NCBI GenBank assembly: GCA_016926155.1
Contig: JAFGPC010000073.1
Location: 1 to 64,000 of the forward strand
From: Sedimentisphaerales bacterium
GTDB lineage: Bacteria; Planctomycetota; Phycisphaerae; Sedimentisphaerales; Anaerohalosphaeraceae
Length of the DNA stretch: 64,000 nt
Direction: 5' to 3'
The notes under the pieces were generated by a model. It did not search any database, was not told where the DNA came from, and worked only from the letters and a program-made list of their open reading frames with translations. This document shows, piece after piece, positions 19,803 to 27,300 of this stretch; positions within the stretch are counted from its first letter, which is position 1; each line of letters starts with the position of its first letter. The translations under genes were made by a program, and so were the position numbers.

Positions 19803-19910
19803 TCGATCTTTCAACCTGAGTGGTATTTTTCTCTTAGGTTCTTGTGTATGAAATTCCTATTCTTGAAACGCCTAATTGCAGGAAACCTTCTTCTCGCTTT
19901 TAGGTCTTTT

Positions 19911-19919
19911 TGGTATAAA
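19911..19919 (+). promoter_or_regulatory. Extended -10 promoter for aroA
   Basis: TGGTATAAA is a TGn-TATAAA extended -10 about 35 bases before the aroA start codon. The -35 position (TTCTCG, 19891-19896) is poor, as extended -10 promoters allow. The short leader then holds GAGGA ahead of ATG 19954. Confidence 0.45.
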
Positions 19920-19953
19920 ACATCTTTGTAATTCGGTCCAAACGAGGATATTT

Positions 19954-21243
19954 ATGCAGCTCTATGTTGAAAAGTCGAGTTTACAGGGCGAAGTTTCGAT
20001 TCCAGGTTCGAAATCCCATACCATCCGGGCCATAGCCATCGCTTCCTTAGCACAGGGAGTGAGCCGGATTCGCAATCCACTGCCATCCAATGATACATTG
20101 AGTGCTGTCCAGTGCTTTCGGTTGCTGGGAGCACAGATCGAGACAAGGAATAATTCTGTATGGGAAGTAGAAGGAATAAATGGGCGGATTCAGATCCCGG
20201 ACAAAGTAATTGATGTGGGAAATTCCGGTACAACACTTCGTGTGGCATTGGGTTCGGCTGCTTTGTGCAATCCAAAGGCAAAAGTCGTTTTTACCGGAGA
20301 TGGACAGATTCAGGCTCGCCCGGTCGGTCCGTTGCTGCAGTCGTTACGCGATCTGGGCGCCGGGGCAGAATCACTCAAAGGGAATAATTGTGCTCCTGTT
20401 GCTGTTTCAGGAACATTGATTGGTGGAAAAACCAGGATTGAATGTAAGACTAGTCAATATCTATCCAGTCTGCTTCTTGCTTGTCCATTGACGCAAAAGG
20501 ACACTGAGATTGAAGTTACTCTGCTCCATGAACCGGATTACGTACAAATCACCTTGGACTGGCTGGATCGACAAGGTATTCGATATGACAACAACGAAAT
20601 GAAGTATTTCCGGATTCCCGGCAGGCAGCATTATCAGGCTTTTGACGCCTTCATCCCGGCGGATTTCTCCAGTGCAACCTTTTTCCTATGCGCCGGAACC
20701 TTGCTGGATGCCAATGTGACTTTGCGGGGGCTCGATTTTTCGGACAGTCAGCCAGACAAGGCCGTGGTCGATTATCTGAAACAAATGGGGGCCGATATCC
20801 AGGTTGAATCCAATGGTGTTTCCATCAAGGGAGGGATGTTAAGAGGTACGACAATTGATATGAACCGAACCCCGGATGCGTTGCCCGCCATGGCAGTAAC
20901 AGCGGTTTTTGCCGAAGGGACAACACATCTGATCAATGTGCCTCAGGCCCGAAACAAGGAAACGGACCGGATTGCCTGTATGGCGTCGGAATTGAAAAAA
21001 CTGGGTGCTGCTGTACAAGAGCTTACAGATGGATTGATCATTCATGGCGGTAAAACACTTCGACCGACACAACTGAACGGCTGGGGTGATCACCGGATTG
21101 TAATGGCCTTGAGTCTGGCGGGAATGGCCATGGATGGGACAACCATCATCGATACTGCCGAAGCAATTCATGTCACATTTCCCGAATATGTGAATCTGAT
21201 GCAGGCCTTGGGTGCGAAAATGGAAGTAAGGGGAAAGTCTTGA
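19954..21243 (+). CDS. aroA: 3-phosphoshikimate 1-carboxyvinyltransferase (EPSP synthase)
   Basis: Transfers enolpyruvyl from PEP to shikimate-3-phosphate, the sixth step of chorismate synthesis. The 429-residue product shows GSKSHTIRAIAIASLA near the N-terminus (shikimate-phosphate Lys and Ser), GNSGTTLR (family GNAGTxxR), QARPVGPLL, and DHRIVMALSLAG near the C-terminus. Start is ATG 19954 with GAGGA upstream; the frame is open 26 codons further back but those residues precede the usual N-terminus. The stop overlaps the next start codon as TTGA (21240-21243), indicating translational coupling with the kinase-synthase fusion. Three consecutive pathway steps are thereby encoded in two adjacent genes. 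Confidence 0.95.
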   Translation: MQLYVEKSSLQGEVSIPGSKSHTIRAIAIASLAQGVSRIRNPLPSNDTLSAVQCFRLLGAQIETRNNSVWEVEGINGRIQIPDKVIDVGNSGTTLRVALGSAALCNPKAKVVFTGDGQIQARPVGPLLQSLRDLGAGAESLKGNNCAPVAVSGTLIGGKTRIECKTSQYLSSLLLACPLTQKDTEIEVTLLHEPDYVQITLDWLDRQGIRYDNNEMKYFRIPGRQHYQAFDAFIPADFSSATFFLCAGTLLDANVTLRGLDFSDSQPDKAVVDYLKQMGADIQVESNGVSIKGGMLRGTTIDMNRTPDALPAMAVTAVFAEGTTHLINVPQARNKETDRIACMASELKKLGAAVQELTDGLIIHGGKTLRPTQLNGWGDHRIVMALSLAGMAMDGTTIIDTAEAIHVTFPEYVNLMQALGAKMEVRGKS

Positions 21244-22847
21244 AAATTGTACTGGCAGGACCGAAAGCGGCAGGTAAAAGTTCCGTTGCTACCGAACTGA
21301 CCCAATTGACCGGCCTGGAAGCCGTCGAAACGGATCGTCTAATCGAAGAGTGTTTCGAGAAGGAAACCGGTGAAAAGCACACCTGTCGCGAGATTTTCAT
21401 CGAGCACGGAGAACAGGAATTTCGTGCTGTTGAGAAAAAGGTGGCCGTTCAATTGAGTGAGGTTGACTGGAAACTGATCGTATGTGGCGGCTCAAGCCTG
21501 TTGGATCCGACCAGCCGACGGGCTTTGCGAAAAAAGGCCGTTTTAATTTATCTGACTGCTGATCCCGCTACGTTATGGAGCCGTATTGCCAGGGATGGAA
21601 TTCCACCCTGGCTGAGTGGGCCTGACGCCCGTCGACAACTCGATCAGAACGTTTCCTATCGTCAGGAGCTTCTCAGTCCGTATGCTGATGCTGTGATCGA
21701 CACAACCAATAAAACGCCCGCCCAAATTGCGCAGGAGGCAATGGGATATATCATGGAAGAATTGACCATCCGTTGCCGAGCCGCCAATACCTATGGTGAC
21801 ATCATTCGTGTGACGACATTCGGCGAGAGTCACGGGCCGGCTATCGGCGCTGTTCTGGATGGAGTAAAACCGGGAATCGAATTTCCGCTGGAACAGATCC
21901 AAAACCAGCTTGATCGTCGTCGTCCCGGACAGAGCGAAGTCACGACGCCCCGTGATGAAAAAGACAAAGTGGAAGTCCTTTCCGGCGTATTTGATGGAAA
22001 AACCACCGGTGCCCCGATCGCTATGGCGATCTTTAATCGGGATCACGATTCATCCAAATATGAAGGCATCAAGGATCTTTTCCGGCCCGGACATGCCGAT
22101 TTTACATACTATCAAAAGTATGGAATACGCGACCATCGCGGCGGGGGACGTTCCTCCGGTCGTGAAACAGCCGGTCGGGTGATGGGCGGGGCTTTTGCCC
22201 GCCAGGAATTGACCAAACGCGGGATCAGAATCGTGGCCCATGCCATCGAAATTGCCGGCATTGCTGTGCAAAAATGTGATTACGAAGCTATTGAATCCAA
22301 CCCGGTTCGCTGTGCCGATCCGGAAGCGGCCGAGAAGATGGTCCAGGCGATCCTGGCGGCCAAAGACGACAACGATTCGGTTGGGGGGATCATCCAGTTG
22401 GAAATCCATGGTCTGCCTGCGGGATTGGGCGATCCGGTCTTTCAGAAATTGGACGCTCGCCTGACCGGTGCAATTATAACCTTAGGAGCTGTTAAAGGTA
22501 TCGAGGTAGGCGAGGGTTTTGCATTGACCCGCATGCGGGGCAGCCAGTCCAATGACAATATGGCCGATGGCGGTTTTATGTCAAACAATGCCGGAGGTAT
22601 CACTGGAGGTATTTCCACAGGACAACCGATTATATTACGAATTGCCGTCAAGCCGACCTCTTCCATCGCCAAACCGCAGAAAACTGTCGATACAAACCTT
22701 CAAAATCAGCCTATCGAAACCCATGGTCGACACGATCCCTGTATCGTTCCTCGCGTCATCCCCGTTATTGAAAACATGACGGCGCTGGTCCTTCTGGATG
22801 CATGGGAAGTCCAGGAACGACTTCGACCCGGTTGGGATCAGAAATAA
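21240..22847 (+). CDS. Shikimate kinase-chorismate synthase fusion
   Basis: One 535-codon frame joins two enzymes of the shikimate pathway. Residues 1-~175 are a shikimate kinase (P-loop GPKAAGKSS, D32 in ETDRLIEE, R62 in EFRAVE, CGGSSL for the substrate GGG loop). Residues from ~188 are a full chorismate synthase with GESHG, DRRRPGQ, FRPGHAD, RGGGRSSGRET, GSQSND, SNNAGGITGG and GRHDPC intact. The normal lid Arg (RPLL in other shikimate kinases) is not seen: this region reads GIPPWLSG. The synthase makes chorismate from EPSP with reduced FMN; between kinase and synthase lies the aroA step, encoded just upstream. Start is TTG 21240, overlapping the aroA stop. No stop or frameshift separates the halves. 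An internal AGGAGG near the junction could also permit a separate synthase. Confidence 0.92.
   Translation: MKIVLAGPKAAGKSSVATELTQLTGLEAVETDRLIEECFEKETGEKHTCREIFIEHGEQEFRAVEKKVAVQLSEVDWKLIVCGGSSLLDPTSRRALRKKAVLIYLTADPATLWSRIARDGIPPWLSGPDARRQLDQNVSYRQELLSPYADAVIDTTNKTPAQIAQEAMGYIMEELTIRCRAANTYGDIIRVTTFGESHGPAIGAVLDGVKPGIEFPLEQIQNQLDRRRPGQSEVTTPRDEKDKVEVLSGVFDGKTTGAPIAMAIFNRDHDSSKYEGIKDLFRPGHADFTYYQKYGIRDHRGGGRSSGRETAGRVMGGAFARQELTKRGIRIVAHAIEIAGIAVQKCDYEAIESNPVRCADPEAAEKMVQAILAAKDDNDSVGGIIQLEIHGLPAGLGDPVFQKLDARLTGAIITLGAVKGIEVGEGFALTRMRGSQSNDNMADGGFMSNNAGGITGGISTGQPIILRIAVKPTSSIAKPQKTVDTNLQNQPIETHGRHDPCIVPRVIPVIENMTALVLLDAWEVQERLRPGWDQK
21733..21738 (+). promoter_or_regulatory. Internal Shine-Dalgarno-like AGGAGG at the kinase/synthase junction
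   Basis: AGGAGG inside the fusion gene lies 2 bases before an in-frame ATG (21741) and 14 bases before another (21753, beginning MEELTIRC, the natural start of a chorismate synthase). Neither distance is ideal, but the element sits exactly between the two enzyme domains and could allow some stand-alone synthase to be made. Confidence 0.3.
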
Positions 22848-22867
22848 CATCGCTGTCAGAGTTTTCC

Positions 22868-22896
22868 TTGCATCACAAAGCAGTTTTTTCTATAAA
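22868..22896 (+). promoter_or_regulatory. Promoter of the second chorismate synthase-like gene, with overlapping dyad
   Basis: TTGCAT (22868-22873), a 17-base spacer and TATAAA (22891-22896) form a credible sigma-70-like promoter about 50 bases before GTG 22945. A perfect dyad TTTCTAT-AA-ATAGAAA (22887-22902) overlaps the -10 box and could be an operator. This suggests control separate from aroA and the fusion gene. Confidence 0.5.
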
Positions 22897-22944
22897 TAGA
22901 AACATGCTAAAACAATATCCATGTTTTTATCAGGAGAGTAAAGA

Positions 22945-24285
22945 GTGATTGGTTGTCATGTTGGACGATGCTTTCAAGTAACAGTCGCCGGCGGATCCTA
23001 TCAGGAAGGCTTGACGGCAGTGATACAAGGCCTTCCGCCGGGGATGGTGTTTACCGAGCAGGAAATCTATGGGGATCTGCTCCTCCGCAAACCCGGGGCC
23101 GATGAGCTTTCCAGTCCCCGCAAGGAACCGGATCTACCAGTGATCTATTCCGGAGTCAATGCGGCCGATACTATTGAAAATGCCGGCAATAGGCACCATA
23201 CCAATGGCACACCGCTGACAATCCTGATCCCCAATCTGGATCGACACTTTATTCACATTAAGCAGTATCAGGACACGAACCGAACCCCCCGACCCGGTCA
23301 TGCCTCCTATGCATCTTTTACTAAATATGGACCGGATGATGACGCGATCGGTGCCGGATTGTTCAGCGGCCGATATACTTCGACGATTGTTGCCGCCGGG
23401 TATGTGGCCAAAAGAGTACTCAAATTATTCGGTATTGAGGTGTTCTCTTTTATTCGCGAAATGGCCGGAGTTCGATGTGTTTCCGTGGATTCAAAGACGG
23501 CTTTTGAATCGACCCAACGATATAAAACAATGCGACATGACCTGGATCCCTTCTTCCAGGAAATTTATGTCAAACAACGGATTACACGGGACATGCGATT
23601 TTTGGAAAAAATGCAGGTCTTGGCACAAGTCGAAAAGGAAATCGATGCGATTCGTTCGAAAGCACCGAAAATAACGAATGAAGAAGTCTTGGAGCAATAT
23701 AACATCCATCCTGTCGTGAACTGTCCGGATATTGATACCGCTCAGGCGATGCTGGAGGCATGTAATACAATCACCAAAACCGGAGATTCATCGGGAGGGG
23801 TAGTGGAAGTTCGGATTACCGGAGTTCCTGTTGGCTTGGGTGAACCGGTCTTTTGCAAGCTTGATGGCGAACTTGGGCGTATGCTGGGTATCGGCGCCGT
23901 CAAAGGAGTGGAGGTAGGGGCTGGCTTTGCCGTCAAGGACATGACCGGCTATCAATCCAATGATCAGATACATTCGGAAAATGGGAAAGTTATCTTCGAT
24001 TCCAACAACGCCGGCGGCATTACCGGCGGGCTTACGACGGGACAGGATATAGTGGTTCGTCTAGCCATTAAGCCGACACCAACCATCGATAAACCCCAGC
24101 ACACCATTGACAAATATACCTGTCGGAACACCGACCTGGCGGCGATCACCCGACGGGATCCGACCATTGTCGGGCGTATCTGGCCGGTGGCGGAAAATTA
24201 TACGGCCATGGTGATCCTGGATCATTTGTTCCTGCATCTAGGATATGAAGCTATCAGGCAGAAAGTTATTTCCATCGAATCCTGA
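22945..24285 (+). CDS. Divergent chorismate synthase-like protein
   Basis: A 446-residue homologue of chorismate synthase across its full length, encoded right after a normal synthase. Retained parts are RPGHAS, GDSSGGVV, GVPVGLGEPVF, GAVKGVEVGAGFAV, YQSNDQ and SNNAGGITGG. Altered active-site motifs are GESHG to GGSYQ (the catalytic His becomes Tyr), RRRPG to LRKPG, RGGGRSSxRET to IGAGLFSGRYT, and RHDPC to RRDPT (Asp kept). A ~60-residue helical, charged stretch (about 170-240) also differs. GTG 22945 follows CAGGAGAG at good distance and the gene has its own promoter, so it is not a dead fragment. A changed reaction, a regulatory or structural partner of the synthase, or an FMN-binding protein are all possible; canonical activity is unlikely given the lost His. 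Confidence 0.8.
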   Translation: MIGCHVGRCFQVTVAGGSYQEGLTAVIQGLPPGMVFTEQEIYGDLLLRKPGADELSSPRKEPDLPVIYSGVNAADTIENAGNRHHTNGTPLTILIPNLDRHFIHIKQYQDTNRTPRPGHASYASFTKYGPDDDAIGAGLFSGRYTSTIVAAGYVAKRVLKLFGIEVFSFIREMAGVRCVSVDSKTAFESTQRYKTMRHDLDPFFQEIYVKQRITRDMRFLEKMQVLAQVEKEIDAIRSKAPKITNEEVLEQYNIHPVVNCPDIDTAQAMLEACNTITKTGDSSGGVVEVRITGVPVGLGEPVFCKLDGELGRMLGIGAVKGVEVGAGFAVKDMTGYQSNDQIHSENGKVIFDSNNAGGITGGLTTGQDIVVRLAIKPTPTIDKPQHTIDKYTCRNTDLAAITRRDPTIVGRIWPVAENYTAMVILDHLFLHLGYEAIRQKVISIES

Positions 24286-24305
24286 TTCATCAGTTCGAAT
24301 AAAAA

Positions 24306-24331
24306 AGGCCTTGCTCTGGAGGGCAAGGCCT
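24306..24331 (-). terminator. Rho-independent terminator of the secretin-like gene
   Basis: A 9-bp stem AGGCCTTGC/GCAAGGCCT with an 8-base loop. On the - strand it is followed by a run of T (TTTTTT), the classic form. It lies just beyond the stop of the - strand secretin-like gene and 20 bases past the end of the + strand synthase-like gene, for which its downstream side lacks a T run. Confidence 0.8.
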
Positions 24332-24359
24332 CTAATTCCTCATTCCGCCAAGATCCAGG

Positions 24360-27300
24360 TTAGCCACCACTGGCCTCTATTGCGGCCACGGCATCTTGCT
24401 CGGCCTCTTCCTTAAGGATAATACTCGGTTTGACAAGGATCAGCAGGATTCGCTTATCTTTGACGTCGCTGCGATTGGAGAACAATCGTCCGAGAATCGG
24501 CAATTTGGCCAGGCCGGGAATACCGGATTCGATTTCCGCATCGGCTGTGATCGTCAGACCGCCTAGCAACACCGTTCCCCGGTCCGGTACTAAAACACGC
24601 GTCGTGATCTGCGAGATCTGGTTAACAGGCAGATCATAGGTGTCTGTCAGGAGGGTTCCGGTACCCGGATCCACCGCCTGAACAGTGTCCTGTGTAAACG
24701 TAACGTCGTTTAACATTGTCTCGATATTCAAGATGACATATTTCTTGTCGGCTGTGATCACCGGCGTTACCATCATTTGAATCCCGTCCGAGATCTGATC
24801 GATTTCATGGGTCCAGTAGGTAAAGGTTCGATCCGTGCCGGTGGTGGTGATTGTCTCACTTTCGATTTCGCTGTCCGACTTGTAGTTGGTAACTGTATTG
24901 ACGCTGATCCTTGTTGATTCCCCATTCATGACTGTTGCCTTCGGGGCCGTCAACGTTTTGGAATTGGCGTGCATCTGCGTGGCACGAATGATAAAGTCCA
25001 CCTGGAGATCGTCTATTGCGCCGGTATAAGAGAGGCCGAAATTCAAAGCCGGATTCGAGGCGGCCAGCGTTGCCAATGAGCCCGAAACATCAGTACTGCT
25101 GGGTCGGCTTGCTTCGAAGGAGTCCATTTCGATCACGCTGGTAGGATCGGCCGTCGTTCCGAGTTGAAATTTATCCAAATCCAGAGTATTGATCGTTACA
25201 TCCAGACCGATATCTTCCAGGAAGTGTTCATCCACCAGGAGGAATCGTGCCTCCACCGCGACCTGCTGGCCCAGCAGCGCCATCATTCGATCCAGGAATT
25301 CCCGCACCCGAGTATGATTTTCCGGAGTTTGCCAGACAATAAGCTGGGTACCGCCAAATTCATTGATTCGGCCTTCGCCCCCCGCATCGTACCAACTGTC
25401 CGGCTCGATGGTTTCCTGAATAATATAAATGATCTGATAGGCTCGCATACGAGCTTGCATCTGGGTATAGCCACCTCCACCTCCATACATGCCACCTCCC
25501 ATGCCACCACCCATGCCGCCCATACCGCCTCCCATGCCTCCCATACCGCCTCCCATGCCTCCCATACCGCCTCCCATGCCTCCCATACCGCCCATCATGC
25601 CCATGCCTCCCATGCCGCCGCCCATCATGCCCATGCCTCCCATGCCGCCTCCCATGCCCCCCATGCCGCCTCCCATGCCTCCCATGCCGCCACCCATACC
25701 ACCCATGCCTCCTCCCATGCCACCACCCATGCCCATGCCGCCCATCATGCCATACCCGGACGAGGGAGGACTGAGTAATTCGCCGACATCATAGACCCGG
25801 TTTTCAAATCGAGTCGGAAGAGAGTCGCGGGTGGCAATACTGATGACACCGTCTTCGATGGTATAATCCAGGGGAGACAGTGCTTGCGGACCACTAACTG
25901 CTTGGAGGACACGATCCAGACCCGTACGCAGGGGGATCGAGGTCAGACCAGCCCCGCTCATCTGGATCGGAGTATCCGGCGTGATAAAAGCCGTATCGTT
26001 CAGGTCGCGCCATAGAACCGCCATGTTTAATGGAGGCTCGACACTGTTTCGCAGGATTTCGACCGCTTCGGATAAGGTGGTTTGCTCGGTCAGCATGGAA
26101 AGATTGACCACCTCATTGAGCTGACGATCTGTAGCCATGTCCGCCGGACTGCGACCGTCGGTAACCGCCTCTTTTCGGCGCGAAGCAATCTCTTTCCAGT
26201 TTTCCGGATAATTCATTTCCTTCTCGTATGGAACGCCCTGCTTATAAGTTTCCACCAGCAGAGCCATCTCATGCTTTTCACTTTCTTTCTTCAACTGCAG
26301 TTCCGACCGCCAGCGAATGGTATCTTCCAGCATCTGCTTGAGCAGCAAAGCGTCATTGTTCATCGAATCCACAACCAACAACTGTTCGATTTGTCCCAGG
26401 GCTTCGTCAAAACGTCTTTCTTCACTGAAATTCCTGGCACGTGTCATATAATCTTTGATGGCTTTTTGACGTTGTTGTTCTGCTTCTGTTGTCAGTTCTT
26501 CAGCCCGTTGTTCAATATCTTTTCTTATTCTTTCTTCTTCTGCTTGTTGCCACTGGGCTTGTTTTGTATTGATCTTATCCTGTAAGAGATTCAATTCATC
26601 CATGTGGGTTTTGTATTGGTCACCCAGGAGTAAACGATTCTTTTCAACCACACGGAACGCAGTCGCCAGCGATTGCTGCGCTTCGGTAAACCGATTCTTT
26701 TCCAGCAGGCTCCCGGCTTTGGCGGCAGAATCCATGACAATCGCCTTGGTGTATTCACGCTGAATTTTTTGTTCTCGCAGAACCTGATTCAAATAAGCGT
26801 CTTTGGGTAAGGCAGGTGTCGGTTCGGTTGGAATTTCAGTCGGTGTCTTGATTTCGGTTTCCACCTTTGAAGGGGGTACGGTTTCCGGTTTGGATTCCGA
26901 TATGGTTACCGGTTTCGGCTCGGGTTTTAACTCCGGTTCCGGTTCTGTTTTGGGTTCCGGTTGAACGATTGGCTTGACAGGTTCGACCTTGGTTTCCGGT
27001 TCGGGCTCGACAACGACAGGTTCTGCCTTGACCTCAGGTTTGACTTCCGGTTGTGGTTTGGGTTCCGGCTTCGGCTCGGCGGAGATTTCGTATAAAACGT
27101 TTTTAGGAGGACTCACGGAACCTTGTTCCGGAGCGCCCAATAGCTCGTCTTCTACATTCATAGTGGTGGTCGCATCGGACTTGGCGGGTTCTACGGTCTC
27201 AGGCACGCTCGTTTGAGAAGCGATCATGACCAGGTAGTCCTGGGCTGTCTTGCCATCCTTTCCAGCAACAGGAACACCGGTCTTGATGACTTCTTCAAAA

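Follow-up and report, generated by a model that had tools for sequence, protein, structure and literature searches.

Within the window, the 64,000-nucleotide stretch of DNA analysed here, three shikimate-pathway genes follow one another on the same strand: aroA, a shikimate kinase-chorismate synthase (SK-CS) fusion and, 97 nt beyond the fusion, a second chorismate synthase gene with altered motifs. The genes and the features read in and around the altered one are as follows.

19954..21243, + strand: aroA, EPSP synthase (PF00275; TIGR01356 over cut-off), its ATG start picked within a longer ORF, 19876-21243
21240..22847, + strand: SK-CS fusion with canonical motifs (PF01202 and PF01264)
22932..22938, + strand: ribosome-binding site AGGAGAG, 6 nt before the GTG start, read from the sequence
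22945..24285, + strand: altered chorismate synthase gene, 446 aa, GTG start, PF01264 and TIGR00033 over cut-off
22990..23004, + strand: GGSYQ, residues 16-20, with Tyr19 for the GESHG His and Ser18 kept
23080..23097, + strand: LLRKPG, residues 46-51 (canonical xRRRPG), with R48, K49, P50 and G51 invariant in 81 sequences
23290..23307, + strand: RPGHAS, residues 116-121, with His119 (His106 of Neurospora crassa) kept
23347..23373, + strand: IGAGLFSGR, residues 135-143 (canonical RGGGRSSAR), with Ser141 (Ser127) kept and the upstream Arg lost
23476..23724, + strand: subfamily-specific helical insert, about residues 178-260 (~80 aa), not in the canonical rows of the alignment
24145..24165, + strand: ITRRDPT, residues 401-407 (GRHDPC in normal enzymes), with Asp405 (Asp367 of N. 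crassa) kept
24304..24333, no strand assigned: terminator-like hairpin between convergent genes, an 11-pair stem, consensus match only

A preliminary description of this DNA had proposed a catalytically altered synthase beside a normal one, and both halves of that proposal are borne out. The altered protein is a real, conserved paralogue, matching PF01264 at E = 1e-92 (310.8 bits; cut-off 27) and TIGR00033 at 308.2 bits (cut-off 212.2), and scoring 319.1 against NF003793, just under the cut-off of 321. Its neighbour, the fusion, has GESHG, RRRPG, RPGHAD, RGGGRSS and GRHDP, all normal. The family markers RPGHAS, GDSSGG and SNNAGGITGG, and the changes GGSYQ, LRKPG and IGAGLFS, are present in the altered protein exactly as first described. 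A ribosome-binding site is present, and we agree that the gene is probably expressed; the claim of a promoter of its own was not upheld, as a consensus scan of 22600-24500 gave no sigma-70-like match.

Elsewhere in the window, a 6908-aa ORF (29344-50070) is rich in repeated beta-helix-like segments, with one stretch like a subtilisin-type protease and one like a caspase-like peptidase; in relatives, large beta-helix proteins of a similar kind adjoin the altered gene. Apart from aroA, conserved neighbours at the relatives' loci are for the most part genes of the secretin, large beta-helix, pyrimidine and TsaB kinds; their presence looked general and points to no function. Frames of a fused length similar to that of the SK-CS fusion are also seen in relatives.

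Conserved residues and fold of the altered protein

In chorismate synthases, the GESHG His (His17 in N. crassa, His10 in Streptococcus pneumoniae) is regarded as catalytic and invariant; an N. crassa His17-to-Ala mutant reportedly retains part of its activity. Ser16 and Ser127 act in a proton relay. His17 is placed close to the phosphate of EPSP, where it may supply a proton to the group that leaves (PMC7144000). Losing the second, flavin-side His (His110 in S. pneumoniae, His106 in N. crassa), which protonates N1, costs 20-fold, and losing Asp367, which primes N5, costs 300-600-fold (PMC3509576).

A scan of the genome collection gave 164 confirmed loci, of which we kept the 80 that encode the same protein nearly gap-free. 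These are 72-84% identical to the window protein, and pairwise identity among the 81 altered sequences is 69-97%. Tyr occupies the GESHG His site in 81/81 sequences and in distant members of the family; because Tyr19 is identical in all 81 homologues, chance and sequencing error are excluded as its source. Identical positions number 156 of 446 across the 81 sequences and include S18, Y19, Q20, R48, K49, H119, S121, S141, G142, R143, R404 and D405. Five distant members at 60-63% identity (G217, G272, G327, G343 and G355) retain GGSYQ, LLRKPG, RPGHAS and IGAGxFSGR. All canonical planctomycete synthases that were retrieved with a complete N-terminus have GESHG.

Residue equivalences to the N. crassa enzyme were mapped via an alignment with the Acinetobacter baumannii protein. 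The RPGHA His (H119, His106) and the R-x-D Asp (D405, Asp367) are invariant in the altered family, as are S18 and S141 (Ser16 and Ser127). Among the equivalents of Ser16, His17, His106, Ser127 and Asp367, His17 alone is changed. Set against AroC (EC 4.2.3.5; PF01264, TIGR00033; 1QXO and the N. crassa enzyme), the altered protein shows homology over its whole length, the same fold, the other four of these residues and linkage to aroA. It departs from AroC in the replacement of His17 by Tyr and in the changes accompanying it: Gly for the adjacent Glu of GESHG, LRKPG for RRRPG, loss of the Arg before Ser127 and RRD for RHD, together with RPGHAS for RPGHAD and the ~80-aa insert. As some canonical Arg residues are lost, substrate binding may differ. 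The SK-CS fusion of the same order, its neighbour in the window, belongs to the same catalytic domain family and is the usual synthase of relatives without the altered type; it differs in its canonical motifs, in sharing only ~40% identity and in having its own kinase domain, which the altered type lacks. No description of a Tyr-type chorismate synthase subfamily was found in the open-licence literature searched.

All 28 Foldseek matches in the PDB with E <= 0.001 to a model of the altered protein are chorismate synthases, and 1QXO (S. pneumoniae) gives a TM-score of 0.77 by target length; near the FMN site the model is of low quality. The insert is predicted to form helices, mostly with high confidence in the model. 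Its assignment to a known domain was rejected, the sole PDB match being bS16 at E = 0.8, which is not meaningful. A 470-aa GESHG chorismate synthase (L101, in G252), with ~1290 nt on PF01264, also carries extra sequence.

Distribution and shikimate-pathway context

We counted PF01264 proteins in, and searched for the altered protein across, 394 planctomycete genomes that are at least 90% complete. The altered protein occurs in 15, of which 12 have no other PF01264 protein and three have both types; a canonical synthase is present in 372 of the 379 genomes without it. The association of altered and canonical presence gives a Fisher P = 9e-16 over the 394 genomes with shared ancestry ignored, and since the genome samples are overlapping and related, such P values overstate independence. 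In the window's order, with matches classed by span and score, 36 genomes are altered-only, 10 canonical-only and six have both, while three contain fragments only and four contain neither. Among 50 genomes reached through their loci, 42 are altered-only and eight have a canonical synthase too; this set overlaps the other samples, and some entries share identical contig coordinates (for example, G307/G482), so the samples are not to be summed. On the co-occurrence check proposed in the preliminary description, both types occur together in the window and in 3/15 and 8/50 carriers; most carriers are altered-only.

Most sampled genomes are metagenome assemblies. Altered-only genomes include G447 (one 2.27-Mb contig), G455 and G458, which are single-chromosome assemblies going by the titles of their records. 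G485, with the label Omnitrophota, and G487 and G488, with the label Fibrobacterota, are also altered-only. The altered gene is carried by 21 of 168 genomes of the phylum of G488. Two altered-synthase copies per genome were seen in G488 (L114 and L115) and G013.

The pathway on either side of the altered synthase is largely present. Among 34 genomes of the order, of mixed types, aroA scored over its curated cut-off in 31 and chorismate-binding enzymes were found in all 34. In a second set of altered carriers, aroA was over cut-off in 21/22 genomes, the exception being G480; altered carriers with no aroA match over cut-off are G015 and G480. Directly upstream of the altered gene, on the same strand and less than 250 nt away, aroA occurs at 33 of 76 altered loci, and within 5 kb at 48 of 76. 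In the canonical-fusion-only genomes G006, G016, G024 and G046, aroA and the fusion are on separate contigs or > 600 kb apart. In G447, AroA is encoded beside the altered gene, and the same single contig also carries genes for ADH synthase, an AroDE fusion, TrpE, TrpD and TrpB, and a chorismate mutase-prephenate dehydratase (CM-PDT).

Several further observations concern the early pathway and AroA. The ADH synthase of G447 (976733-977524; L180:7733-8524:-) is an archaeal-type entry to the shikimate pathway. DHQ synthase II (PF01959) was found in 11/53 genomes tested, all of them altered-bearing, and in 0/13 canonical-only genomes; a tie between the altered synthase and an archaeal-type early pathway (PF01959) was rejected, since most altered genomes are without PF01959. 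AroA (window 19954-21243; L021:6710-7984) has GNSGTTLR[I/V] where the Escherichia coli enzyme has GNAGTAMRP; the residue at the Pro101 position differs, and the glyphosate response might be unusual.

The shikimate kinase step is less complete. No PF01202 match was obtained in 15 of 27 altered-only genomes, by a search whose sensitivity is imperfect, as it also missed one control genome. These genomes, which have aroA and chorismate users, are G447, G455, G458, G040, G217, G272, G307/G482, G327, G149, G088, G488, G456, G483 and G453, with G307 and G482 counted separately, although they look like one genome. In G447, a local profile search for shikimate kinase (0.8% of the contig masked) gave weak matches only. 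The best of these (E = 1e-4) looks like a cytidylate kinase. A GHMP-type kinase in G447 was rejected; the one candidate, whose best model is heptose 7-phosphate kinase, fell below that model's cut-off. At a few loci, large P-loop proteins separate aroA from the altered gene (relative to the latter, at -2051..-282 in L003, -1852..-8 in L023 and -2156..-165 in L007); not being conserved neighbours, they were rejected as an alternative shikimate kinase. Other altered-only genomes, including G001, G012, G021 and G027, do have a PF01202 kinase, so the altered subfamily is not tied to kinase absence. With no recognisable shikimate kinase in many altered-only genomes, EPSP supply there is not fully explained; the simplest reading of the gap is an unrecognised kinase.

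Function of the altered synthase and its alternatives

Sequence comparison and genomic distribution together make it very probable that the altered protein works as a chorismate synthase and represents a separate, old subfamily. The evidence that it fills the chorismate synthase step in chorismate-using genomes is genomic and indirect: in most carriers it is the only detectable chorismate synthase, with the pathway before and after it present. The preliminary description had called the canonical reaction doubtful. That doubt finds no support: most carriers have no other synthase and, in those tested, aroA is nearly always kept and chorismate users always are. Counting against a working synthase are the catalytic standing of His17, the lost Arg residues, the altered-only genomes with no recognisable shikimate kinase and the two carriers, G015 and G480, with no aroA match over cut-off.

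We propose that the altered protein would turn EPSP from the neighbouring AroA into chorismate with reduced FMN. The residues credited with flavin priming and protonation (His119, Asp405, Ser18 and Ser141) are retained, and Tyr19, in a re-tuned pocket, may take over the help that His17 gives to departure of the 3-phosphate. In the window organism, the altered protein would be a second isoenzyme beside the SK-CS fusion, in a lineage that probably sits where two interchangeable enzyme types overlap.

A flavoenzyme performing a different reaction on another enolpyruvyl sugar-acid, with altered-only genomes using an unknown, unrelated chorismate-forming enzyme, is very unlikely. Residues around the substrate pocket are changed, the insert is new, many carriers are without a detected shikimate kinase, and the changed Arg positions could leave room for another substrate; the replacement pattern argues against such a substrate. 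This reading needs a chorismate synthase still to be discovered in every genome where the altered protein stands alone. Chorismate synthesis, by contrast, directly accounts for the replacement pattern, the aroA linkage and the retained flavin-side residues. The new-function FMN enzyme and the other sugar-acid activity floated at the outset are likewise disfavoured by the sole-synthase pattern and by aroA directly upstream at so many loci.

The missing kinases allow a different thought, a shikimate-pathway variant with another way of activating the 3-hydroxyl, where Tyr19, with the rearranged Arg and Lys residues, would be adapted to a different leaving group or activation step. Its basis is the 15/27 altered-only genomes without a recognisable kinase, three single-chromosome assemblies among them, and we hold it to be decidedly improbable.

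Very improbable, too, is a pseudoenzyme or regulatory subunit that joins and modulates the canonical synthase tetramer. The altered gene lies directly behind a canonical one in the window and also at L044, L052, L063 and L076, and the fold is common to both proteins; most carriers (12/15 and 42/50) have no canonical synthase to regulate, which sets aside, as a main role, the regulatory partnership first suggested. A regulatory role confined to the minority of genomes with both enzymes is possible.

The tree with planctomycete homologues that the preliminary description had called for was built from 57 sequences. Altered proteins group in a single clade (support 100/100) whose long stem measures 2.2 changes per site, and the window's canonical synthase falls elsewhere, among its relatives' fusions. 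Between the window gene and five relatives, dN is 0.11-0.17 and dS is saturated; with the 156 identical positions, these rates speak for purifying selection on the altered gene, which is not decaying. A recent, decaying duplicate of the neighbouring synthase deserves virtually no credence, as adjacency is all that favours it and it is opposed by ~40% identity to the neighbour, an intact frame, the same substitutions across 81 sequences, low dN and the placement of the two proteins in different parts of the tree; GESHG-type homologues scattered among close relatives of the altered protein, the sign of recent decay named beforehand, were looked for and none was found.

The canonical branch nearest to the altered clade is L087 (G037; support 94/84, with a long-branch warning), a placement that is only suggestive. 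Like the altered clade, this synthase has FSGR and is encoded directly downstream of aroA; unlike it, L087 keeps GESHG, RR, RPGHAD and GRHD and is missing the insert. It may possibly resemble the precursor of the altered clade.

Chorismate synthase, the enzyme that ends the shikimate pathway, is an established antimicrobial and herbicide target, and the altered synthase marks lineages with an unexplained shikimate kinase step. If our reading is true, a conserved Tyr version serving whole lineages would show that His17 is replaceable, and the leaving-group step would become testable by Tyr/His swaps. Annotation by motif, and inhibitors designed against the GESHG His, would then miss a real enzyme class.
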